NCBI RefSeq assembly: GCF_000013025.1
Contig: NC_008358.1
Location: forward strand, 124,001 to 188,000
Direction: 5' to 3'
DNA length: 64,000 bases
Source: Hyphomonas neptunium ATCC 15444
GTDB lineage: Bacteria; Pseudomonadota; Alphaproteobacteria; Caulobacterales; Hyphomonadaceae
Below the pieces are notes generated by a model, which saw only the letters and a program-made list of their open reading frames with translations, was not told the origin of the DNA and ran no database searches. This document shows positions 2,950 through 52,516 of this stretch, piece after piece (position 1 is the first letter of the stretch; the number at the start of each line of letters is the position of its first letter). A program made the translations under genes and the position numbers.

Positions 2950-4047
2950 TTGGCAGACACTCAGTCCTCCCCCCCCAAGACCGGCATCAATGCCGAGGGC
3001 TTCCTGACCGACAGCTGGTATCTGGCTGCTACCTCGGCGGAGCTGAAGGCGGGCCAGCAGCAGCGGGTGATGATGCTGGGCGAGCCGGTTGTTGTGGGAC
3101 GGACCCCGGCAGGGGAGGCGTTTGCCCTGCGTGACATCTGCCCCCATCGGCTGGTGCCGCTGTCTGCGGGCCAGCAGGTGGAGACGGCCGGCGAGTGGAC
3201 GCTGCAGTGCCCCTATCATGGCTGGCGCTTTGGGACCGATGGCGGCTGCAGGCTGATGCCGAGCCTGACCGGGGACAGCCCGTATGATCCGTCCAAGGTC
3301 AAAGTGCGCCGCTATCCGGTGCATGAGGCCAATGGCGCGGTCTATATCTATGTGGCGCATGATGCGCGCAGTATTGCGCCGCCAGCTGTTCCGCCCCCGG
3401 ATTTCGGCCCGCTGCCGGAAAAGCCCGGCTTTGTCATCCATGATGTATTCAATGCGCATATGGATGATGCGGTCGTGGGCCTGATGGACCCGGCGCATGT
3501 GCCCTTTGTGCATAATCAGTGGTGGTGGCGCCCGCCGTCTGCAGGTCTCAAGCTCAAGGAAAAGCCGTTCGTGCCGATCACGCGCGGCTGGGCGATTGAC
3601 CGGCATGCGCCTTCCTCAAACTCAAAACTCTATCGCTGGGTATTTGGCGGCGATGTGATGACGGAGATCTGTTTTCAGCTGCCGGGCTACCGGTGGGAGA
3701 TCATCTCCAATGCCACTGCGCGCCTGCTGACGCTGACCTGCCTGACACCGGAAGCGCCCAAACGTACACGGATTACCCAGTTTACCTGGTGGACGGGCGC
3801 GCCGCTCCTGAAGCTCGCCGTGCCGGTAGCCAAGCGGATGGGCAAGACATTCCTGGCCCAGGATGGCCGGATGGTGGACCTGCAGAATGAAGGCATGGCG
3901 CATCAGAAGGCGATGCTGTGGATCGATGACATCGATGTGCAGGCCAAATGGTATCAGATGCTGAAACGTGAATGGACCGCCGCGCGCTGCGAAGACCGTG
4001 ACTTTGCCAATCCGATCGAACCACGCATCCTGAAATGGATGAGTTGA
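2950..4047 (+). CDS. Rieske [2Fe-2S] ring-hydroxylating oxygenase, alpha-subunit type
   Basis: The protein has 365 residues. The Rieske cluster ligands are CPH (64-66) and CPYH (87-90), with the usual spacing. The mononuclear iron site is visible as D180, H183 and H188 in LMDPAHVPFVH. The size and layout are those of single-component-type oxygenases such as vanillate O-demethylase or pheophorbide oxygenase relatives, which need a separate reductase. No reductase is nearby, and the substrate is unknown. The start is a TTG at 2950, 12 bases after the previous stop; the first in-frame ATG would remove the conserved N-terminal strand. A purine-rich stretch near 2935 may serve as ribosome binding site. 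Confidence 0.88.
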   Translation: MADTQSSPPKTGINAEGFLTDSWYLAATSAELKAGQQQRVMMLGEPVVVGRTPAGEAFALRDICPHRLVPLSAGQQVETAGEWTLQCPYHGWRFGTDGGCRLMPSLTGDSPYDPSKVKVRRYPVHEANGAVYIYVAHDARSIAPPAVPPPDFGPLPEKPGFVIHDVFNAHMDDAVVGLMDPAHVPFVHNQWWWRPPSAGLKLKEKPFVPITRGWAIDRHAPSSNSKLYRWVFGGDVMTEICFQLPGYRWEIISNATARLLTLTCLTPEAPKRTRITQFTWWTGAPLLKLAVPVAKRMGKTFLAQDGRMVDLQNEGMAHQKAMLWIDDIDVQAKWYQMLKREWTAARCEDRDFANPIEPRILKWMS

Positions 4048-4184
4048 GGCATACTGCCTCTATCCTGCCCTGAAAAAGCCCCGGACAAATGAAAGGGTGC
4101 CCTCTGGCCGAGGCGCGTGATCGCCCCATGTTATGGCCCGCGCCCGCATTCCCCGCCTGGCGCGCCACCAAAAGGACCTGTCCA

Positions 4185-4769
4185 ATGAAAATGTTTCTCT
4201 TTGCCGCCGCGAGCGTGTTTGCCCTCGCGGCCTGTTCGCCCGCCGCTGAAGAAGGTACGCCGACAGTCGCTCCGCCGCCTGTGGAAGCCCCTGACACTGC
4301 CATGGAAGACACGATGACGGACACCCAGCCCGTCGAAGAGGTCACGCTCGTTGATGTCGTCGCCAATAACCCCGATTTCTCGACCCTGCTTGCTGCTGTG
4401 GATGCTGCAGGCCTGAGCGAAACGCTGGCCGGCCCTGGCCCATACACTGTGTTCGCGCCGACCAATGAAGCATTTGCCGCGCTTGCCCCTGGCCAGCTCG
4501 ACGAGCTTCTGCTGCCGGAAAACAAGGACGACCTGACCCGTATCGTCAGCTATCATGTCGTGCCAGGGATCGTGATGGCCGCCGATGTGCCCGCTGAAGA
4601 CGCCGCGACGTCCACCGCCAGCGTCAACAATCTTGACCTCTCGGTGCGCCGCATGGCGGACGGTTCGGTGATGGTGAACCAGTATACGGTCACCAGCTCG
4701 GACATTCAGGCCTCCAATGGCGTCGTTCACGTGATTGACGGGGTTCTGATCCCCCGCATGGAAGAATAA
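4185..4769 (+). CDS. Fasciclin (FAS1) domain lipoprotein
   Basis: The protein has 194 residues, with a signal peptide ending ALAAC (Cys 17). A short acidic/Pro linker precedes one FAS1 domain from about residue 50 to the end, with the H1-type box YTVFAPTNEAFAAL, the YHVVPG segment and the terminal VVHVIDGVL strand. FAS1 domains act in adhesion or extracellular matrix binding. AAAGGA lies about 10 bases before ATG 4185; the longer frame from 4089 lacks a signal peptide. The gene is monocistronic, closed by a strong terminator. Confidence 0.92.
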   Translation: MKMFLFAAASVFALAACSPAAEEGTPTVAPPPVEAPDTAMEDTMTDTQPVEEVTLVDVVANNPDFSTLLAAVDAAGLSETLAGPGPYTVFAPTNEAFAALAPGQLDELLLPENKDDLTRIVSYHVVPGIVMAADVPAEDAATSTASVNNLDLSVRRMADGSVMVNQYTVTSSDIQASNGVVHVIDGVLIPRMEE

Positions 4770-46116: not shown

Positions 46117-46575
46117 ATGGAAAACATTGATGATACGGATCGATTGATCCTTCGCGCACTGCAAGCGGACGGAAGCGCATCGCTCGAATCCATTTCGGCG
46201 GGCGCCAGCATTTCAGTGAACACCTGCTGGCGCCGGGTGAAGCGGCTGGAAGAGGCCGGGATTGTCTCTAAGCGAGTAGCTTTGATTGATCCGGAAAAGG
46301 TTGGCTTGGCCCAAACCGTCTTCGTTGCCATACGCACCCGAGATCATTCTGCCGCCTGGCTACAGCGCTTTTCGGCTGCAGTTAGCGCGGTCCCGGAAGT
46401 CATAGAGTTCTATCGGATGGCGGGCGACGTGGATTACCTGCTGAAAATTCAGGTGGGTAGCGTCGCTGACTATGACCGTGTTTACAAAGCGCTGATCGCG
46501 CGGGTCGACCTTGCCGATGTCAGCGCCACTTTTGCAATGGAGTGCCTGAAAAACACGACCGAACTACCGCTTTAG
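46117..46575 (+). CDS. Lrp/AsnC family transcriptional regulator
   Basis: The protein has 152 residues. An N-terminal winged HTH (DDTDRLILRALQADGSASLE, then SVNTCWRRVKRLEEAGIV) and a C-terminal RAM ligand domain (MAGDVDYLLKIQVGSVADYDRV) are as in Lrp. The ligand is presumably an amino acid, most likely linked to the divergent PLP enzyme. ATG 46117 (MENIDDTDR) is the conserved start; the frame is open back to a TTG at 46081. It overlaps the convergent gene end by four bases. Confidence 0.94.
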   Translation: MENIDDTDRLILRALQADGSASLESISAGASISVNTCWRRVKRLEEAGIVSKRVALIDPEKVGLAQTVFVAIRTRDHSAAWLQRFSAAVSAVPEVIEFYRMAGDVDYLLKIQVGSVADYDRVYKALIARVDLADVSATFAMECLKNTTELPL

Positions 46576-47423
46576 AAAGCAGGCGCGGGAGCGGGGAGCA
46601 TAAGTTCCGGCATCAGGCAGCTGGCGAGGGGTTGGCCAGGGGTTGTTTTGGTCAGGCCTTCGGGCTCGCGCAGATAGCTACGCATCGCTTCACTCGCAAC
46701 ACGGTCAAAACTCTCGACTGCGGCGGGTTGAGCCGTTTCCTTGAGTATGCGGGCATCCTGGCAGGTTCTCTGCTCGAGAATCGTCAATGCGGCAGGCTCT
46801 CGCCCGGTTCGTAAGGCGCGCAGCGAGGCGCGCATGGGATCTGCGCGCAGAACCGCCGCAGCTGGCAGGCCGGGACCATCAGGCACCGCCAGCCAGAGAG
46901 CACGCACCCCTGCCTCGGGATCCTGTTGTGAGAAACTAACGGCCAGAATGACGCCGCCTCGGGATTTCCGGATGTCGAACTCCGACATGCCCTCCGCTGT
47001 CAGGGTCTCTAGCCATTCACTGATACCCAGATTGCGGACCTCCAGCGCCTCTCGCTGGTTGCCTGCCGCCAACAAGGCAACCGATTGATCAAGGCGCTGC
47101 GCCGGAGACAGCCGCGCACCCCGCGCAATGGCGCTGGCATAATGGGAAACAGCATCCGAAGCCTCTCCCGCGTCCAGCGCGCCGCGCGCGGCAATCAGGT
47201 GTGCTTCGCGCGCTTCGAACCTATCGGGACAATCGGAAATGAAGGTTTCAGCTGTGTTTTGCAGATACGCCGGTGTCGCTTCTTCGGTTGGCTGCAATAT
47301 GGCTGTCTGGAAGCGCGAAACGTCGCTCAAGCCGCAACCTTCCTGCGCCATGGCGCCTAGGGGTGTAGCCAGGATAACCAGACATATCCCGGCCGATCTT
47401 ATCCAACTTCCGAAGTTTACCAT
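46572..47423 (-). CDS. Exported protein of unknown function
   Basis: The protein has 283 residues, with a signal peptide ending LGAMAQEG. The mature part is helical and looks TPR-like (Ala-rich pairs such as AREAHLIAARGALDAGEASDAVSHYASAIARG). Cys pairs (EGCGL, SDCPD; RTCQDA, ASCLMP) suggest disulfides in the periplasm. The family is unknown. GGGAG lies before the ATG, and a strong small hairpin lies in the leader (47438-47458). Confidence 0.7.
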   Translation of the reverse strand: MVNFGSWIRSAGICLVILATPLGAMAQEGCGLSDVSRFQTAILQPTEEATPAYLQNTAETFISDCPDRFEAREAHLIAARGALDAGEASDAVSHYASAIARGARLSPAQRLDQSVALLAAGNQREALEVRNLGISEWLETLTAEGMSEFDIRKSRGGVILAVSFSQQDPEAGVRALWLAVPDGPGLPAAAVLRADPMRASLRALRTGREPAALTILEQRTCQDARILKETAQPAAVESFDRVASEAMRSYLREPEGLTKTTPGQPLASCLMPELMLPAPAPAF

Positions 47424-47492: not shown

Positions 47493-48302
47493 TCAGGGAT
47501 GGATGCCCGAGGGGTCGTTCACTGGATGGAAATGCCCGTCATCCGCGCTGTGGCCGTGGTCTTCATGCCCATGACCATGGATTGGGAGGATCATCAGGAT
47601 CAGGGCAATGAGGATGCCGCTCCCAAGGGCCGCAACCCCCCGGATTGGAGGCTCTTCCTTCAAGGGCTGCATCAGGGGGCCGGTGGCCACATAAATCAGG
47701 AGGCCGGCCGACAGCGCGTAAAGCGCGGCAACAATTTCCGGACCGAGACCGGTCAGGAAGAGACCGCTGACCAACGCGCCAAACGGGGTCGTCGCCCCGG
47801 CAGCGAGAAACGCCCAGAACAAGGCCTCCCGGACACGGAAGCCATGGCGGGCGAGGATAGCAAAGGCAATCACACCTTCGGCAAACTCATGCAGGATCAG
47901 TGAGGTGGACGCATAGACCCCGGATTCGAAGCTGGCGGCGAAGGTTACCGAGTAGATCACCCCATCAAGGAAAGAGTGCAGGCCAACTGCCAGGAGAGGC
48001 GTCAGTGCGCGTGCCCGGCCACCCGCCTTTTCCGGAAACAGGGCATTGATGCCGGACGTCAGCAGCAAGCCTCCAAAAAAACCTGTCAGCAGAAAGGCCG
48101 GTGCGCGCGCGCTCATCAGGATGGCTTCCGGCGCGATGTGCAGCAAGGTCAACGAGATCAGCATGCCCCCAGCGGCCAGCGAGAACAGCCCGGATTGGCG
48201 GGCGGTCCAATCGCTGCGGATCGCGACAGCTACGAGACCAGCCGACGTTACGAGGGCCGCGATCAGCCCGAACAGGATAGGCGCCTGAAGAGAAAGGGGC
48301 AT
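47493..48302 (-). CDS. ZIP family metal (zinc) transporter
   Basis: The protein has 269 residues and about eight TM helices. The metal path is formed by TM4 HSFLDG and TM5 HEFAEG, both ZIP hallmarks. A His-rich C-terminal tail (HGHGHEDHGHSADDGHFH) probably buffers zinc. Members import Zn2+ into the cytoplasm. It is divergent from the His-rich lipoprotein of the ABC group, with a Zur-like site midway between. Confidence 0.92.
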   Translation of the reverse strand: MPLSLQAPILFGLIAALVTSAGLVAVAIRSDWTARQSGLFSLAAGGMLISLTLLHIAPEAILMSARAPAFLLTGFFGGLLLTSGINALFPEKAGGRARALTPLLAVGLHSFLDGVIYSVTFAASFESGVYASTSLILHEFAEGVIAFAILARHGFRVREALFWAFLAAGATTPFGALVSGLFLTGLGPEIVAALYALSAGLLIYVATGPLMQPLKEEPPIRGVAALGSGILIALILMILPIHGHGHEDHGHSADDGHFHPVNDPSGIHP

Positions 48303-48390
48303 TCGGCGGCGGATGTCCGTCTTGCTGCCGTCTTGAGGGGGCAGGGGTTGATGAAGGGCTGCGCCTTGTGCGCTCAGGCACCTTGCGAAA

Positions 48391-48409
48391 AGTGTTATAA
48401 TGTTTCACT
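48391..48409. promoter_or_regulatory. Zur-box-like site between divergent zinc genes
   Basis: The partly palindromic stretch AGTGTTATAATGTTTCACT has outer arms AGTG/CACT and an AT-rich TTATAAT core like known Zur sites of alphaproteobacteria. Its centre (48400) is 98 bases from the ZIP start and 94 from the lipoprotein start, almost exactly in the middle. TATAAT inside it could also serve as a -10 box that Zur would cover. Confidence 0.5.
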
Positions 48410-48493
48410 CTTGCGCTTGCCAGAAGTATTTTGCGGCACAGCTGGGTTTTCCCGGCATTCGTATGCCGCTTTCCCGTTACCAGGAGCTGACCC

Positions 48494-49138
48494 ATGAGTT
48501 CATCCGCCCGCTTTCTGACCCCGCTGCTCACCGGAGCTGCAATTTCTGTTCTTGCCGCCTGCGGTCCGGGAGCGCCGCCGCCCGCCGAGACTGCGGCGGT
48601 CGAGACCGGAGAAGCACTGCCGGAAGACGGACCTTCTGGTGACGTTCAAACCCCGTCCGGTGATGACCATCCGGAAGGTGAGGCGGGCCACCACGAGGAT
48701 GGAGAAGGCCATGATCATGAAGAAGAGCATGCTGGGGGCACAGCTCATGTTCACGGCATTGCGGATCTGGCCTTTGTCTTCGAAGGTGGGACGCTGACCG
48801 CCGACATGATGTCTCCGCTGGCCAATTTCGGGCTCTCAGAGGCCGACGGGGTGTTCACGGATGAAATCAAATCGGCGCTTCCGGGACTGATTACCGTGAC
48901 GGGTGGCGATTGCACGCCAAACGCGCCGGTGGCGGAGATCGATACATCAAGCGGCCACACAGACGCGCATGTCGGGTTTTCCTGGACCTGCATCAATCCG
49001 GCCAATGTGTCCTCGGCCCGCTTTACCGGGTTTGCCGACTTTCCGGGTTTTGAAACGATCAATGCCGTCTTTGTTGGCGATACGGTTCAGAAAGCCGCAG
49101 AGCTGACGCCTTCCTCCCCAGAGCTTTCCCTGAAATAA
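48494..49138 (+). CDS. His-rich DUF2796-like lipoprotein (zinc binding, putative)
   Basis: The protein has 214 residues, with a signal peptide and lipobox VLAAC (Cys 23). A His/Asp/Glu-rich segment at about 55-85 (HHEDGEGHDHEEEH) is followed by AHVHGIADLAFVFEG and a domain with two conserved Cys (GGDCTP and SWTCINP), the DUF2796 pattern. It may hand zinc to, or sense zinc for, the ABC system encoded next. AGGAG lies 7 bases before ATG 48494. The next gene starts 8 bases after its stop. Confidence 0.82.
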   Translation: MSSSARFLTPLLTGAAISVLAACGPGAPPPAETAAVETGEALPEDGPSGDVQTPSGDDHPEGEAGHHEDGEGHDHEEEHAGGTAHVHGIADLAFVFEGGTLTADMMSPLANFGLSEADGVFTDEIKSALPGLITVTGGDCTPNAPVAEIDTSSGHTDAHVGFSWTCINPANVSSARFTGFADFPGFETINAVFVGDTVQKAAELTPSSPELSLK

Positions 49139-49146
49139 CGGCTGAG

Positions 49147-49842
49147 ATGGCTGACCCGGTTATTGATATCGAAGGGCTGCGCTTTGCCTGGAAGAGCGGC
49201 CCGCAGGTGCTCGACATGGATACGTTTCGTGTCGATGCCGGAGAGCGCGTGTTCCTGCGGGGACCGTCGGGCTCTGGGAAATCCACGCTGCTCGGCCTGA
49301 TCGCCGGCGTTCTTCAGCCCCAGGCGGGGCGCATCTGCGTGTTGGGCGAAGATATGAACGTGCTCAAAGCTGGCCGCCGCGACAGGCTGCGCGCTGACCG
49401 GATGGGCGTGATATTCCAGATGTTCAATCTGGTGCCGTATCTGTCGGTAACGGGAAACGTCCTGCTGCCGCTGCGCTTTTCCCCGGCGCGCCGGATGGCT
49501 GCCGGAAATGATCCGCAGGCGGAAGCCCGCAGGTTGTTGGCGCGGCTGGGTCTGGAAGATAAAGAGTTGCTGGAGCGCCGGGTATCAGACCTGTCTGTCG
49601 GGCAACAACAGCGCGTGGCGGCCGCGCGTGCCCTTATCGGCAGCCCGAGCCTCGTCATCGCCGACGAGCCGACTTCAGCCCTCGACGCCGACGCGCGGGA
49701 CCGGTTCATCACCCTGCTCTCCGAAGAGGTAGAGCGGTCAGGCGCAACGCTTCTGTTCGTCAGTCATGACGCATCCCTCGCCGGATTGTTTACGCGCGCT
49801 GCCGATCTCACGGCAATAAACCGGGCAGGGGCGCCGGCATGA
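49147..49842 (+). CDS. ABC transporter ATP-binding protein (MacB/LolD type)
   Basis: The protein has 231 residues. Walker A GPSGSGKST (39-47), signature LSVGQQQR, Walker B LVIADEPTSALD and the switch His in FVSHD are present. It belongs to the LolD/MacB group that drives mechanotransmission by FtsX-like permeases rather than channel import. It overlaps the permease gene by four bases, so they form one unit. Confidence 0.92.
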   Translation: MADPVIDIEGLRFAWKSGPQVLDMDTFRVDAGERVFLRGPSGSGKSTLLGLIAGVLQPQAGRICVLGEDMNVLKAGRRDRLRADRMGVIFQMFNLVPYLSVTGNVLLPLRFSPARRMAAGNDPQAEARRLLARLGLEDKELLERRVSDLSVGQQQRVAAARALIGSPSLVIADEPTSALDADARDRFITLLSEEVERSGATLLFVSHDASLAGLFTRAADLTAINRAGAPA

Positions 49843-51107
49843 CCGCCCTGTTTTCGCTGGCCTGGGCAAGCCTTCTGAACCGCAAGGGCTCAGTGATCCT
49901 TACGATTGTCGCCGTCGCGCTGTCGGTTGCGTTGTTTCTCGGCGTGGAGAAAGCCCGTAGCGGTGCGCGGGAAGGTTTTGAAAATACCATTTCCGGAACC
50001 GACCTGATCGTTGGGGCGCCGACCGGAACTGTGAACCTTCTTCTCTACTCTGTGTTCCGGATGGGGTCTGCGACAGCGGAAGTCTCCTGGCCAACCTATC
50101 GCCAGATTGCCGAACGCCCCGATGTGGCGTGGACCGTCCCGATTGCATTGGGCGACAGCCATCGCGGCTTTCGCGTGATGGGGACAGCCCCGGAATATTT
50201 TGCCCATTACAAGTATGGCGGCGGGCAGGCATTGGAGCTTGCCGAAGGCGCGGTCTTCGATGACCTGTTCGATGCCGTGATCGGCGCCGATGTTGCGCGC
50301 GATCTTGGGTACGCGCTGGATGCGCCATTGGTTCTGACCCACGGACTTGGCGCGGCGGATCTGGGCTCAGGCCATGAGAACCGGCCATTCCGCGTGTCGG
50401 GCATCCTCAAGCCCACGGGAACGCCTGTAGACCGCACCGTCCATGTCTCCCTCGAAGCGATCACGGCGATCCATGTCGGCTGGGAAACGGGGGCCAAGAA
50501 CCCGCTTGCCGACTCGATCCCGACCGACATGATCAGGTCTTTTGATCTCACCCCCAAAACGGTCACAGCGATTTTCGTCGGGCTGGAGCGTAAGGGCACA
50601 ATCCTGACAACGCGCCGCCAGATAAATACCAATCGCGGTGAGCCCCTCATGGCGATCATCCCCGGCGAGGCGCTGCGAGAGCTTTGGGGCGTGACCTCCA
50701 TTGCCGAGCGCGCGCTGCTGGCCGTGTCCGGCTTTGTGATTGCCGTCGGCCTCGTCTCTATCCTCACATCGATCCTGACCAGCCTCAATGAGCGGCGTCG
50801 TGAAATGTCGATCCTGCGGGCAACGGGCGCGCGCCCTGGTCATATCTTTTCCCTGCTTGTGCTGGAGTCGGGCCTCATCGGCTTCATGGGCGCGTTGATT
50901 GGCATCGTCATTGTCCACAGCGCGTTTGCGGTGGTCGCGCCGCTGCTGCAGGCGCGGTACGGCGTGGCCTTTGGAACGGGCGGGCCGGGGTTGCTTGATC
51001 TCTACGTGCTTGGCGCCGTGACGCTTGCATCGCTTCTGATCGGCGCGGTTCCGGCAATTGCCGCCATGCGGCGGTCATTGGCCGATGGGCTCAGCGTCCG
51101 ATTGTAA
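49839..51107 (+). CDS. ABC transporter permease, FtsX/MacB type
   Basis: The protein has 422 residues: one TM helix near the N-terminus (about 15-35), a large periplasmic domain (about 60-275), and three TM helices in the C-terminal part (LLAVSGFVIAVGLVSILTSI, then two near 340-410). The topology and the FtsX-family loop RRREMSILRATGARPGHI are clear. With the ATPase it probably extracts or moves a lipoprotein or envelope factor in zinc homeostasis, judged from its neighbours. Confidence 0.9.
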   Translation: MTALFSLAWASLLNRKGSVILTIVAVALSVALFLGVEKARSGAREGFENTISGTDLIVGAPTGTVNLLLYSVFRMGSATAEVSWPTYRQIAERPDVAWTVPIALGDSHRGFRVMGTAPEYFAHYKYGGGQALELAEGAVFDDLFDAVIGADVARDLGYALDAPLVLTHGLGAADLGSGHENRPFRVSGILKPTGTPVDRTVHVSLEAITAIHVGWETGAKNPLADSIPTDMIRSFDLTPKTVTAIFVGLERKGTILTTRRQINTNRGEPLMAIIPGEALRELWGVTSIAERALLAVSGFVIAVGLVSILTSILTSLNERRREMSILRATGARPGHIFSLLVLESGLIGFMGALIGIVIVHSAFAVVAPLLQARYGVAFGTGGPGLLDLYVLGAVTLASLLIGAVPAIAAMRRSLADGLSVRL

Positions 51108-51155
51108 CAGCATTGTGCTCTGGAACTGTGCGCGAGGGCGCCTTAAACAAGGGAT

Positions 51156-51881
51156 ATGAAAACGACATCCCTTCCGGGCTTTGCCCTCGCCAGCCTCGCC
51201 ATTGGTCTTGCCGCTGCCTGTGGCGGCGCTTCAACAAACGGGACGGCAGAAGCCGCGCCTGCCAAGCCGGCAGAGGAAGCGCCTGCCAAGGCCAAGGCAG
51301 ACGGTCCGAAAGTCGGGGACAAGATTGGTCAGAGCGCTGCCGAGCGTGCTGCAGCGCGTGCAGAGGCCGCCAAGAAGCGCGCGGCAGATCAGGCCCGCAT
51401 CGATGCTGAACTGGCAGCCCGCGGCGTCGAGCGGATTGGCTGGGAAGACCTGATGCCGGAAGGGGAGGAAGAACGCCTCGCTCAGATGTATCAGGCACAG
51501 ATGGCGATGCTTTATTCCGGCGCCGGTGTGGCCGAAGGTTCAGCGGCGGATACGGCCGTGCAGATCGGTACCTTCAACACTGTGAAGGAGCTCAACGGCA
51601 AGAAGATCCGCATCCCTGGCTATACCGTACCATTCGAGTATGGCGCCGATGCGCAGATCAAGGAATTCCTGCTCGTCCCGTATTTCGGCGCCTGTATCCA
51701 CGCGCCGCCGCCACCGCCGAACCAGACCGTTTTCGTGATGTCTGACAAGGCAATCAAGATGCAGGACCTCGCGCAGGCCGTCTGGATTGAAGGCACCATC
51801 CATACCCAGACCCAAGAAAGCGATCTTGCGGACGCTGCCTATACGATCACGCTGACCGGGATCGAGGAATACACTTACTGA
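51156..51881 (+). CDS. DUF3299 lipoprotein
   Basis: The protein has 241 residues, with a lipobox LAAAC (Cys 22). A Lys/Ala/Glu-rich helical linker (about 25-95) precedes the DUF3299 domain with IRIPGYTVPFEY and FLLVPYFGACIHAPPPPPNQ, whose Cys and His could bind metal. This family is repeatedly found with DUF2796 proteins and MacB-type ABC genes, supporting a role in the same zinc-linked unit. Its stop overlaps the next start by one base. Confidence 0.85.
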   Translation: MKTTSLPGFALASLAIGLAAACGGASTNGTAEAAPAKPAEEAPAKAKADGPKVGDKIGQSAAERAAARAEAAKKRAADQARIDAELAARGVERIGWEDLMPEGEEERLAQMYQAQMAMLYSGAGVAEGSAADTAVQIGTFNTVKELNGKKIRIPGYTVPFEYGADAQIKEFLLVPYFGACIHAPPPPPNQTVFVMSDKAIKMQDLAQAVWIEGTIHTQTQESDLADAAYTITLTGIEEYTY

Positions 51882-52516
51882 TGCAGCATAATCTCGACCT
51901 GGATGCCGTGCAGGTCATTGCCTGGGATTTCGACGGTGTTCTCAATCGTAATATTGAGAAGGGCGTCTTCGCCTGGTCGCGCAATTTCGAACAGGATCTT
52001 GGGCTGCCGCTTCAATCCTTTTCCAGCTTTCTGTTTTCCGGTCGCTTTCAGAAGGCGATGGTGGGGCAGGCTTGCCTGGTCGAGTTGGTGACCGAATGGG
52101 CTGAATTGAATGATGCCCCCGGCCGCGCGCCCGAGATACTCGACTATTGGTTCAGACAGGACGCAATCCCCGACGACCGCACACTGGCGCTTTTCGAGCC
52201 CCTGAAGGCTCGCGGACTGCGACACGTGATGGCGACCAATAACGAAATTCACCGCACGGCTTTTATCGAAGACGCCATGGGGTTTGGCGGGCGGATGGAG
52301 CGCATTTTTGCGGCAGGGCGAATGGGCATCGCAAAACCCGATACCGCCTATTTCGCCCACATTGAAACAGAGCTTGGCGTGGCGCCTGAGGCGCTGCTGC
52401 TCGTCGATGACATGGAAGAGAATGTTGCGTCCGCCAGAACCCGCGGATGGCAGGCGTTCCATTTCGAGGAAGGCGCTCATGAGCTTCTGGAGCGGGCGCT
52501 CGGGCTTCAGCTGTAA
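51881..52516 (+). CDS. HAD superfamily hydrolase
   Basis: The protein has 211 residues. HAD motif I is DFDGVLN (D16 nucleophile, D18), motif II is MATNN, motif III Lys is in GIAKPD, and motif IV is LVDDMEEN. The cap is of the small helical (epsilon-type) kind. Phosphatase activity on a small metabolite is likely; the substrate is unknown. TGATG couples it to the DUF3299 gene. Confidence 0.9.
   Translation: MQHNLDLDAVQVIAWDFDGVLNRNIEKGVFAWSRNFEQDLGLPLQSFSSFLFSGRFQKAMVGQACLVELVTEWAELNDAPGRAPEILDYWFRQDAIPDDRTLALFEPLKARGLRHVMATNNEIHRTAFIEDAMGFGGRMERIFAAGRMGIAKPDTAYFAHIETELGVAPEALLLVDDMEENVASARTRGWQAFHFEEGAHELLERALGLQL

Follow-up and report, generated by a model that had tools for sequence, protein, structure and literature searches.

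A zrg-type zinc-starvation locus, probably Zur-repressed, with a divergent ZIP gene in Hyphomonas neptunium

Introduction

The closest described relatives of the locus analysed here are the zinc-regulated (zrg) genes of Vibrio and the genes PA4063–PA4066 of Pseudomonas aeruginosa. The locus belongs to Hyphomonas neptunium ATCC 15444 and occupies positions 47493–52516 of a 64,000-nucleotide stretch of contig NC_008358.1 (positions 124,001–188,000, forward strand), which is called the window below and provides the coordinates of the locus features; the host genome is a single contig of 3.7 Mb. The locus comprises a gene for a ZIP-family importer and, diverging from it, a zrg-type ATP-binding cassette (ABC) operon followed by a gene for a HAD hydrolase.

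In V. parahaemolyticus, zrgA is the DUF2796 gene and zrgE the DUF3299 gene; zinc limitation induces the five zrg genes 76- to 206-fold. The V. cholerae ZrgA protein binds zinc, and strains that have lost znuA depend on zrgA to grow in zinc-poor medium. A different role has been proposed in P. aeruginosa, where genetic results published in mBio in 2024 led to PA4063–PA4066 being read as a MacB-type exporter of pyochelin-cobalt. Zrg systems are disputed, being regarded either as zinc importers or as metallophore exporters. Among the alphaproteobacteria, znuGHI of the Caulobacter Zur regulon is a further Zur-regulated ABC system. The published facts on Zrg, P. aeruginosa and Caulobacter used in this text follow passages of six articles (PMC9820375, PMC9817125, PMC11481552, PMC8561739, PMC4176598, PMC6103462).

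Results and discussion

The zrg gene set and its divergent ZIP gene

The presented results indicate, with a probability of roughly 85%, that this is a known zrg-type zinc-starvation locus, probably repressed by Zur and paired with a divergent ZIP gene, whose overall effect is to supply zinc to the cell. The gene set is of a known kind, to which the present analysis adds a conserved Zur-like site, the linkage to zur-like genes, the pairing with ZIP, a genus with ZrgA matches in which no ZnuA was found, and a lineage-limited HAD gene. A literature search, outside which most subscription journals lay, found no zrg system with a HAD gene or a divergent ZIP gene, and the two articles joining Hyphomonas, zinc and Zur were, by title or the start of the abstract, not about the present locus.

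All six reading frames of the interval were present in the list of open reading frames and the Pfam scan, on the expected strands and in the expected families. The ZIP-family zinc/metal importer, which has a His-rich C-terminal tail, is encoded on the minus strand (47493–48302; PF02535, 3e-13, 50.1 bits, above the cut-off of 35.1), 191 bp from zrgA. The plus strand carries zrgA (48494–49138), encoding a His-rich, PA4063-like lipoprotein of the family now named ZrgA in Pfam and DUF2796 in older records (PF10986, 6.4e-20, 72.2 bits, cut-off 27.4), and then, after 8 bp, zrgC (49147–49842), encoding an ABC ATPase similar to DevA, FtsE and LolD (PF00005, 6.8e-31). The zrgB gene (49839–51107), which overlaps zrgC by 4 nt, encodes a MacB/LolE/FtsX-type permease with a large periplasmic domain (PF02687, PF12704) and is followed, 48 bp downstream, by a zrgE-like gene for a PA4066-like DUF3299 lipoprotein (51156–51881; PF11736, 1e-45, 155.7 bits). 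The gene for the HAD-IA hydrolase (51881–52516; PF00702, 4.9e-11, 43.8 bits) begins on the final base of the DUF3299 stop codon, an overlap of 1 nt. The gene inventory and tight coupling proposed in the original prediction were confirmed by the reading frames, the Pfam matches and the spacing between genes, and its view of a zinc locus resembling zrg is supported by the families, the sequence matches to solved structures, the neighbourhood and the operator pattern. The description of the set as uncharacterised was mistaken, as the combination of ATPase, permease, ZrgA and DUF3299 has been published, in the passages cited, for V. cholerae, V. parahaemolyticus and P. aeruginosa.

The comparison with solved structures links the locus to the P. 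aeruginosa system. Among PDB sequences, ZrgA matched 7ahw, which is PA4063 of P. aeruginosa (E=1.1e-6), and the DUF3299 protein matched 4hsp (E=4e-27), which was deposited as a hypothetical protein and is PA4066. Because of these matches, and because the published Vibrio zrg genes comprise the same DUF2796 and DUF3299 families, the set can be classed from its sequence as a zrg system broadly defined, though not as a bearer of the narrow NCBIfam ZrgA equivalog. Like the zrgABCDE genes of V. cholerae and V. parahaemolyticus, it combines a ZrgA-family zinc protein, a MacB-like permease, an ATPase and a DUF3299 protein (ZrgE), and it shares with PA4063–PA4066 the family order ZrgA, ATPase, permease, DUF3299. 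Unlike the Vibrio systems, it has lipoboxes in both ZrgA (LAAC) and the DUF3299 protein (AAAC), a divergent ZIP gene and a HAD gene, and it belongs to a genus in which ZnuA was not found. It also differs in that no match to ZrgD (DUF2607) was detected among the ten window genes scanned, the rest of the genome lying outside that search; according to the published passages, zrgD is missing also in V. fischeri and P. profundum. Zur control, published for the Vibrio genes, is represented here by an operator pattern only. The Caulobacter znuGHI system has operator sequences similar to that pattern; however, it is annotated as an ABC-2 type transporter, and the ZrgA family was absent from all 14 control genomes, Caulobacter vibrioides among them.

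Conservation of the neighbourhood

Using ZrgB as the query, 80 loci were retrieved, the nearest of which came from Hyphomonas or other alphaproteobacteria, and they were scanned with profiles built from the loci's own matches; the neighbourhood counts are therefore conditional on ZrgB. Thirty-seven loci (L041–L074, L078, L095 and L101) were treated as Hyphomonadaceae-type by the criterion of at least 67% ZrgB identity, not by their label, and adjacency counts took in only loci with enough flanking DNA, which left 40 of the 43 other loci. Three Hyphomonadaceae-type loci labelled as metagenome-assembled genomes of Acidobacteria (L049, L052, L095) and one labelled Rhodobacterales (L058) have a ZrgB that falls within Hyphomonas in the ZrgB tree, and for this reason their labels are probably wrong or their contigs mis-binned.

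ZrgA, ZrgC and ZIP were each found in all 34 Hyphomonadaceae-type loci whose upstream DNA was long enough, and DUF3299 in all 36 whose downstream DNA was. The HAD gene was present in 17 of these 36 (18/37 if one contig ending inside the HAD gene is included). In the other loci, ZrgC stood beside ZrgB in 40/40, DUF3299 in 37/40 (two DUF3299 frames in 16/40) and ZrgA, by profile, in 29/40, to which a BLAST cluster adds 4. The gene set is thus conserved and not a product of chance. Neither ZIP nor HAD, the latter counted where enough downstream DNA was available, was beside the operon in any of the 40 other loci. Since ZIP accompanies the operon in 34/34 loci of one group and 0/40 of the other, and HAD in 17/36 and 0/40, the pairing of ZIP with zrg is a trait of the family, and the HAD association is narrower still.

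The features of ZrgA that could serve in zinc binding are conserved in both groups of loci. An HxHG motif with at least two later Cys residues was present in 35/35 Hyphomonadaceae-type and 32/32 other ZrgA rows, and a His residue no more than 12 positions before the last Cys in 34/35 and 32/32, respectively; in two of the rows, L073 and L101, the motif is first met within the His-rich stretch. HxHG would provide two ligands of a widely conserved zinc site, and the Cys pair would form a conserved disulfide, roles that were taken from published passages and from reading the 7ahw alignment by eye. In that alignment, the Glu ligand of the zinc site stands opposite a Ser in the window ZrgA, with a Glu adjoining. 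The N-terminal part of the protein is rich in His, Asp and Glu. In a survey of 81 genomes, 42 of which belong to the host genus, taken as Hyphomonas, a ZrgA match was found in 42/42 genus genomes and in 50/81 overall. ZnuA was present in 5/81 genomes, four of which had ZnuA only, while the fifth had both, its ZrgA match being weak and partial (G066).

The putative Zur operator

A putative Zur-like operator, TGTTATAATGTTTCA, lies at 48393–48407 on the plus strand, inside the gap between ZIP and zrgA, and has no second perfect copy in the own genome. The gaps were scanned in the loci with a ZrgA match, leaving out L045, L052 and L058, whose upstream DNA is short. In all 34 remaining Hyphomonadaceae-type gaps, TGTTATAATATAACA or TGTTATATTATAACA was matched at 11–12 of 15 positions at best; when each region was shuffled base by base, no more than 4 of 100 shuffles attained that value. 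When whole Hyphomonadaceae-type loci were considered, 26 of the 28 matches of at least 12 were located in a slot of 500 bases preceding zrgB. These slots together cover 17.0 of 590 kb, or 3% of the sequence. Seven further loci had a match of 11 of 15 in the gap. One of the two matches outside the slot is also a gap site, in L071, lying just outside because the zrgB frame there starts early; the other, in L068, lies elsewhere. Among the 43 other loci (655 kb), 15 matches of at least 13 were found in 12 loci, all of them 1282–1790 bases before zrgB and two of them perfect copies of TGTTATAATATAACA. A zur-like gene was present in 14 of the 43, and in 12 of these it immediately precedes the operon, sharing its strand (L076, L079, L081, L088, L091, L096, L104, L106, L107, L114, L116 and L117). 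The zrg locus is therefore probably repressed by Zur, with ZIP and zrg apparently sharing one operator. The Fur-family protein of the own genome that comes closest to Zur, encoded at C1:658030, scored 122 bits against NF008646, below the cut-off of 167. Neither a sigma-70 promoter scan of the region nor an inverted-repeat search of the ZIP–zrgA gap returned any candidate.

Several results weigh against a zinc-supply locus under Zur control. The counts over Hyphomonadaceae-type loci are not independent, because these loci share ancestry, and 31 of the 43 other loci had no match of at least 13; the zur-like gene upstream may explain several of the loci that lack a site right before zrgA. The window site itself is an imperfect palindrome (12 of 15) and has 3 mismatches to the 13-mer core, a degree of similarity found four times in the window where chance would give 2.1 matches. 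The plain Zur 13-mer was rejected as a search pattern, as with at most 2 mismatches it hit 7 places in the own genome, none in the window, and 29 in the reversed control. The 15-mer fitted to the lineage, with at most 3 mismatches, hit 27 places in the own genome against 15 for the reversed control. Seven of these 27 were inspected, namely all four with at most 2 mismatches, including the window site, and three with 3 mismatches that were chosen for their palindromic or AT-rich look; of the six outside the window, four had, by eye, no zinc-like neighbour. At the level of proteins, ZIP reached 29.6 bits against the ZupT equivalog, far below the cut-off of 252, and ZrgA, with 32.5 of the 185 bits set for NF047873, is for this reason not named as that equivalog. 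The P. aeruginosa genetics mentioned above point in the same direction.

The two inspected places with a zinc-like neighbour are leads for further Zur targets, judged by sequence. One is the palindrome TGTAATAATATTACA (C1:1665165–1665179, locus L133), just before a second DUF3299 lipoprotein gene; the other is a Zur-like site (C1:2043247–2043261, locus L177, 1788–3950) preceding the gene of a TonB-dependent receptor; this receptor has long loops of His, Glu and Asp and is related to ZnuD (371 bits, below the cut-off of 950). The second DUF3299 gene (G000:C1:1665165) adjoins genes of the ArsR and GDT1 families.

The possible role of ZrgBC

When zinc is low, Zur would leave the shared operator and both the ZIP and the zrg arms would be transcribed. 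By analogy with other members of the family, membrane-anchored ZrgA may hold periplasmic zinc at the HxHG site and the His-rich stretch, while ZrgC would hydrolyse ATP and ZrgB would act on the periplasmic side. The net effect would be an improved zinc supply to the cell, for which the ZIP protein would be one route through the inner membrane. The DUF3299 lipoprotein may be an accessory periplasmic protein of the system, and the HAD enzyme a later addition that is probably co-transcribed. The step performed by ZrgBC itself could be the import of zinc by way of ZrgB, its hand-over to a different importer or the export of some helper molecule.

An AlphaFold model of ZrgB built from 38 sequences had a mean pLDDT (predicted local distance difference test) of 85.2. 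It matched the PDB structures of LolE, MacB and the S. pneumoniae transporter 5xu1, and LolE had the lowest Foldseek E-value. In VIA-align comparisons, Z was 25.0 for 5xu1_M (root-mean-square deviation 5.5, 353 aligned), 21.7 for LolE (9rlc_E; 7.3, 369 aligned) and 19.7 for MacB (5gko_A; 4.8, 356 aligned), so that the MacB scores lie under those of LolE and 5xu1. On this model, ZrgB is predicted to fold as a type VII (MacB/LolE-like) permease, in agreement with the MacB-like reading of ZrgB and PA4065 in the published passages. The permease fold is shared with MacAB-TolC and LolCDE, and the separate ATPase and permease genes of the window recall Lol. The fold match also upholds the earlier suggestion that the ABC transporter is of MacB/FtsX/Lol type, not ZnuABC. 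A ZnuABC-type importer was rejected; neither the own genome nor the 42 genomes of the genus yielded a match to ZnuA, the cluster A-I binding protein (PF01297).

A permease of this fold, together with the mBio genetics, is what would be expected if ZrgBC were a MacB-type exporter of a metallophore or metal-metallophore complex, with zinc starvation as the signal and not the cargo. A relative of ZrgB with 36% identity, on a plasmid of Ruegeria conchae (L174, 2185–6085), fits such a function as well, since the ZrgB/ZrgC-like pair occurs there in a run with an HlyD-type adaptor and DUF3299, and without an annotated ZrgA. However, unlike MacAB-TolC, the window has ZrgA and DUF3299 where an adaptor gene would be expected: no MacA-type adaptor was found among the ten window genes scanned, nor did inspection by eye pick out an adaptor family in the neighbour clusters present in at least 4 of the 80 loci, the rest of the genome lying outside both searches. 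The need for zrgA in V. cholerae growing without zinc, as described in the cited passages, also counts against an exporter. As regards the cargo, a maker of pyochelin is expected to carry non-ribosomal peptide synthetase (NRPS) condensation domains. Such a domain was present in 4/42 genus genomes; the own genome and 37 others lack it, yet all 42 have a ZrgA match. Therefore, a pyochelin-like NRPS product made by the cell itself is unlikely to be the general cargo, which sets the genus apart from P. aeruginosa; this argument covers NRPS products, and opine-type metallophores and the uptake of foreign metallophores fall outside it. Taken together, export of a metallophore appears rather unlikely in Hyphomonas.

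The lowest E-value of LolE and the lipoboxes of ZrgA and the DUF3299 protein would also suit a LolCDE-like extractor that sorts these two lipoproteins to the outer membrane. This is very improbable, as ZrgC reached 149.8 bits against the LolD equivalog (cut-off 307.75) and ZrgB 30.5 bits against LolC/E (cut-off 362.45), both far under the thresholds. Among the matches listed for ZrgC (25 of 186 families), no NCBIfam cut-off was reached. Moreover, in a crude motif scan by eye, ZrgA and DUF3299 of the other loci were mostly without a lipobox at the start, and the permease is still conserved there.

The type VII fold would also be compatible with ZrgBC moving no zinc across the membrane and instead stripping zinc from ZrgA, by an ATP-driven motion on the periplasmic side like that of LolCDE or MacB, for the neighbouring ZIP protein. 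The system would then be a hand-over device of bacteria without ZnuA, in which ZrgBC loads or unloads the anchored ZrgA and the metal passes to ZIP. The constant presence of ZIP beside zrg in the 34 Hyphomonadaceae-type loci and the lack of ZnuA matches in all 42 genus genomes are in favour of such a device. Three genus members add to this by keeping ZrgA and DUF3299 behind a Zur-like gene, in a unit divergent from MerC-like and COG0523 genes (L011, L012, L176). In L176 (4115–6015; G018:C1), the only one of the three whose families were scanned, 10 kb of sequence contain Fur, a full-length ZrgA, DUF3299, MerC, DUF1826 and a zinc GTPase of the ZigA type, which scored 605.8 bits against a cut-off of 600; neither these 10 kb nor the 3.5 kb inspected in L011 and L012 showed an ABC gene. 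A Zur-like site with 12–13 of 15 matches accompanies the unit. As the unit indicates, ZrgA and DUF3299 can occur together without ZrgBC, which suggests that the pair can be retained without the pump. On the other hand, ZIP is not beside the operon in any of the 40 other loci, and its co-location with zrg may reflect shared regulation alone. Stripping of ZrgA by ZrgBC is therefore a tentative proposal with the odds against it, and the same low likelihood applies to the wider idea of a hand-over device in bacteria without ZnuA. If true, hand-over would bring the exporter-type fold into agreement with the genetic evidence for import in Vibrio.

Under the preferred reading of a zrg-type zinc-supply locus, the locus is mostly ordinary in kind and well supported, and it is useful because it offers a natural setting in which a transporter under dispute can be examined. 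Hyphomonas could provide clean conditions for such a test: ZnuA was not found, ZIP and zrg form one divergent unit with a single operator-like site, and no NRPS condensation domain was found in 38/42 genomes of the genus.

Four His residues of ZrgB (108, 168, 179 and 212), invariant in the 38-row alignment, were considered as a metal path linked to ZrgA and rejected. All four are kept in L172, L174 and a second copy in L081, relatives without ZrgA seen alongside, so they do not discriminate; two are kept in a Deinococcus relative. In the latter (Deinococcus radiodurans MP1, L173), the ZrgC/ZrgB-like pair is preceded by a small protein (3908–4363) that contains a CPFC motif and looks exported; this protein is DUF3299-like by eye and has no Pfam match.

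The HAD hydrolase and neighbouring genes

The HAD protein met TIGR01509 with 37.2 bits (cut-off 29.4), and its PDB matches were weak, the best being 3cnh (E=3.9e-5), with YihX also matched. Its motifs DFDGVLN, ATNNE, KP and DD, which correspond to those with catalytic roles in HAD-IA enzymes, are intact and strongly conserved in a 19-row alignment, in which one row ends before the last motif. A close relative (at least 255 bits) was found in 21/42 genus genomes, and in 20 of these 21 it lies near ZrgA, on one contig and within about 3.5 kb. In G021, HAD is beside DUF3299 on a contig other than that of ZrgA, and G044, from another genus, has a relative with 55% identity, likewise on a contig other than that of its ZrgA. 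The HAD label changes 3 times on the ZrgB tree, compared with a mean of 13.7 after shuffling, which is compatible with one gain and two losses, short of proof. Judged by its sequence context, the HAD gene is a lineage-limited accessory, tied to the operon by its position and the one-base overlap; no feature of the protein connects its substrate with zinc. The suggestion that it may be new thus holds for a local accessory and no further.

The window interval 46572–47423 encodes a protein of 283 aa that begins with a signal-like segment and matched neither Pfam nor NCBIfam; its relatives occur near the operon in 24 of the 80 loci, every one of them Hyphomonadaceae-type. A membrane protein of the HupE/UreJ_2 family is encoded near the ZIP gene in a cluster of 10 Hyphomonadaceae-type loci, the family having been checked on L056 (4910–5722).

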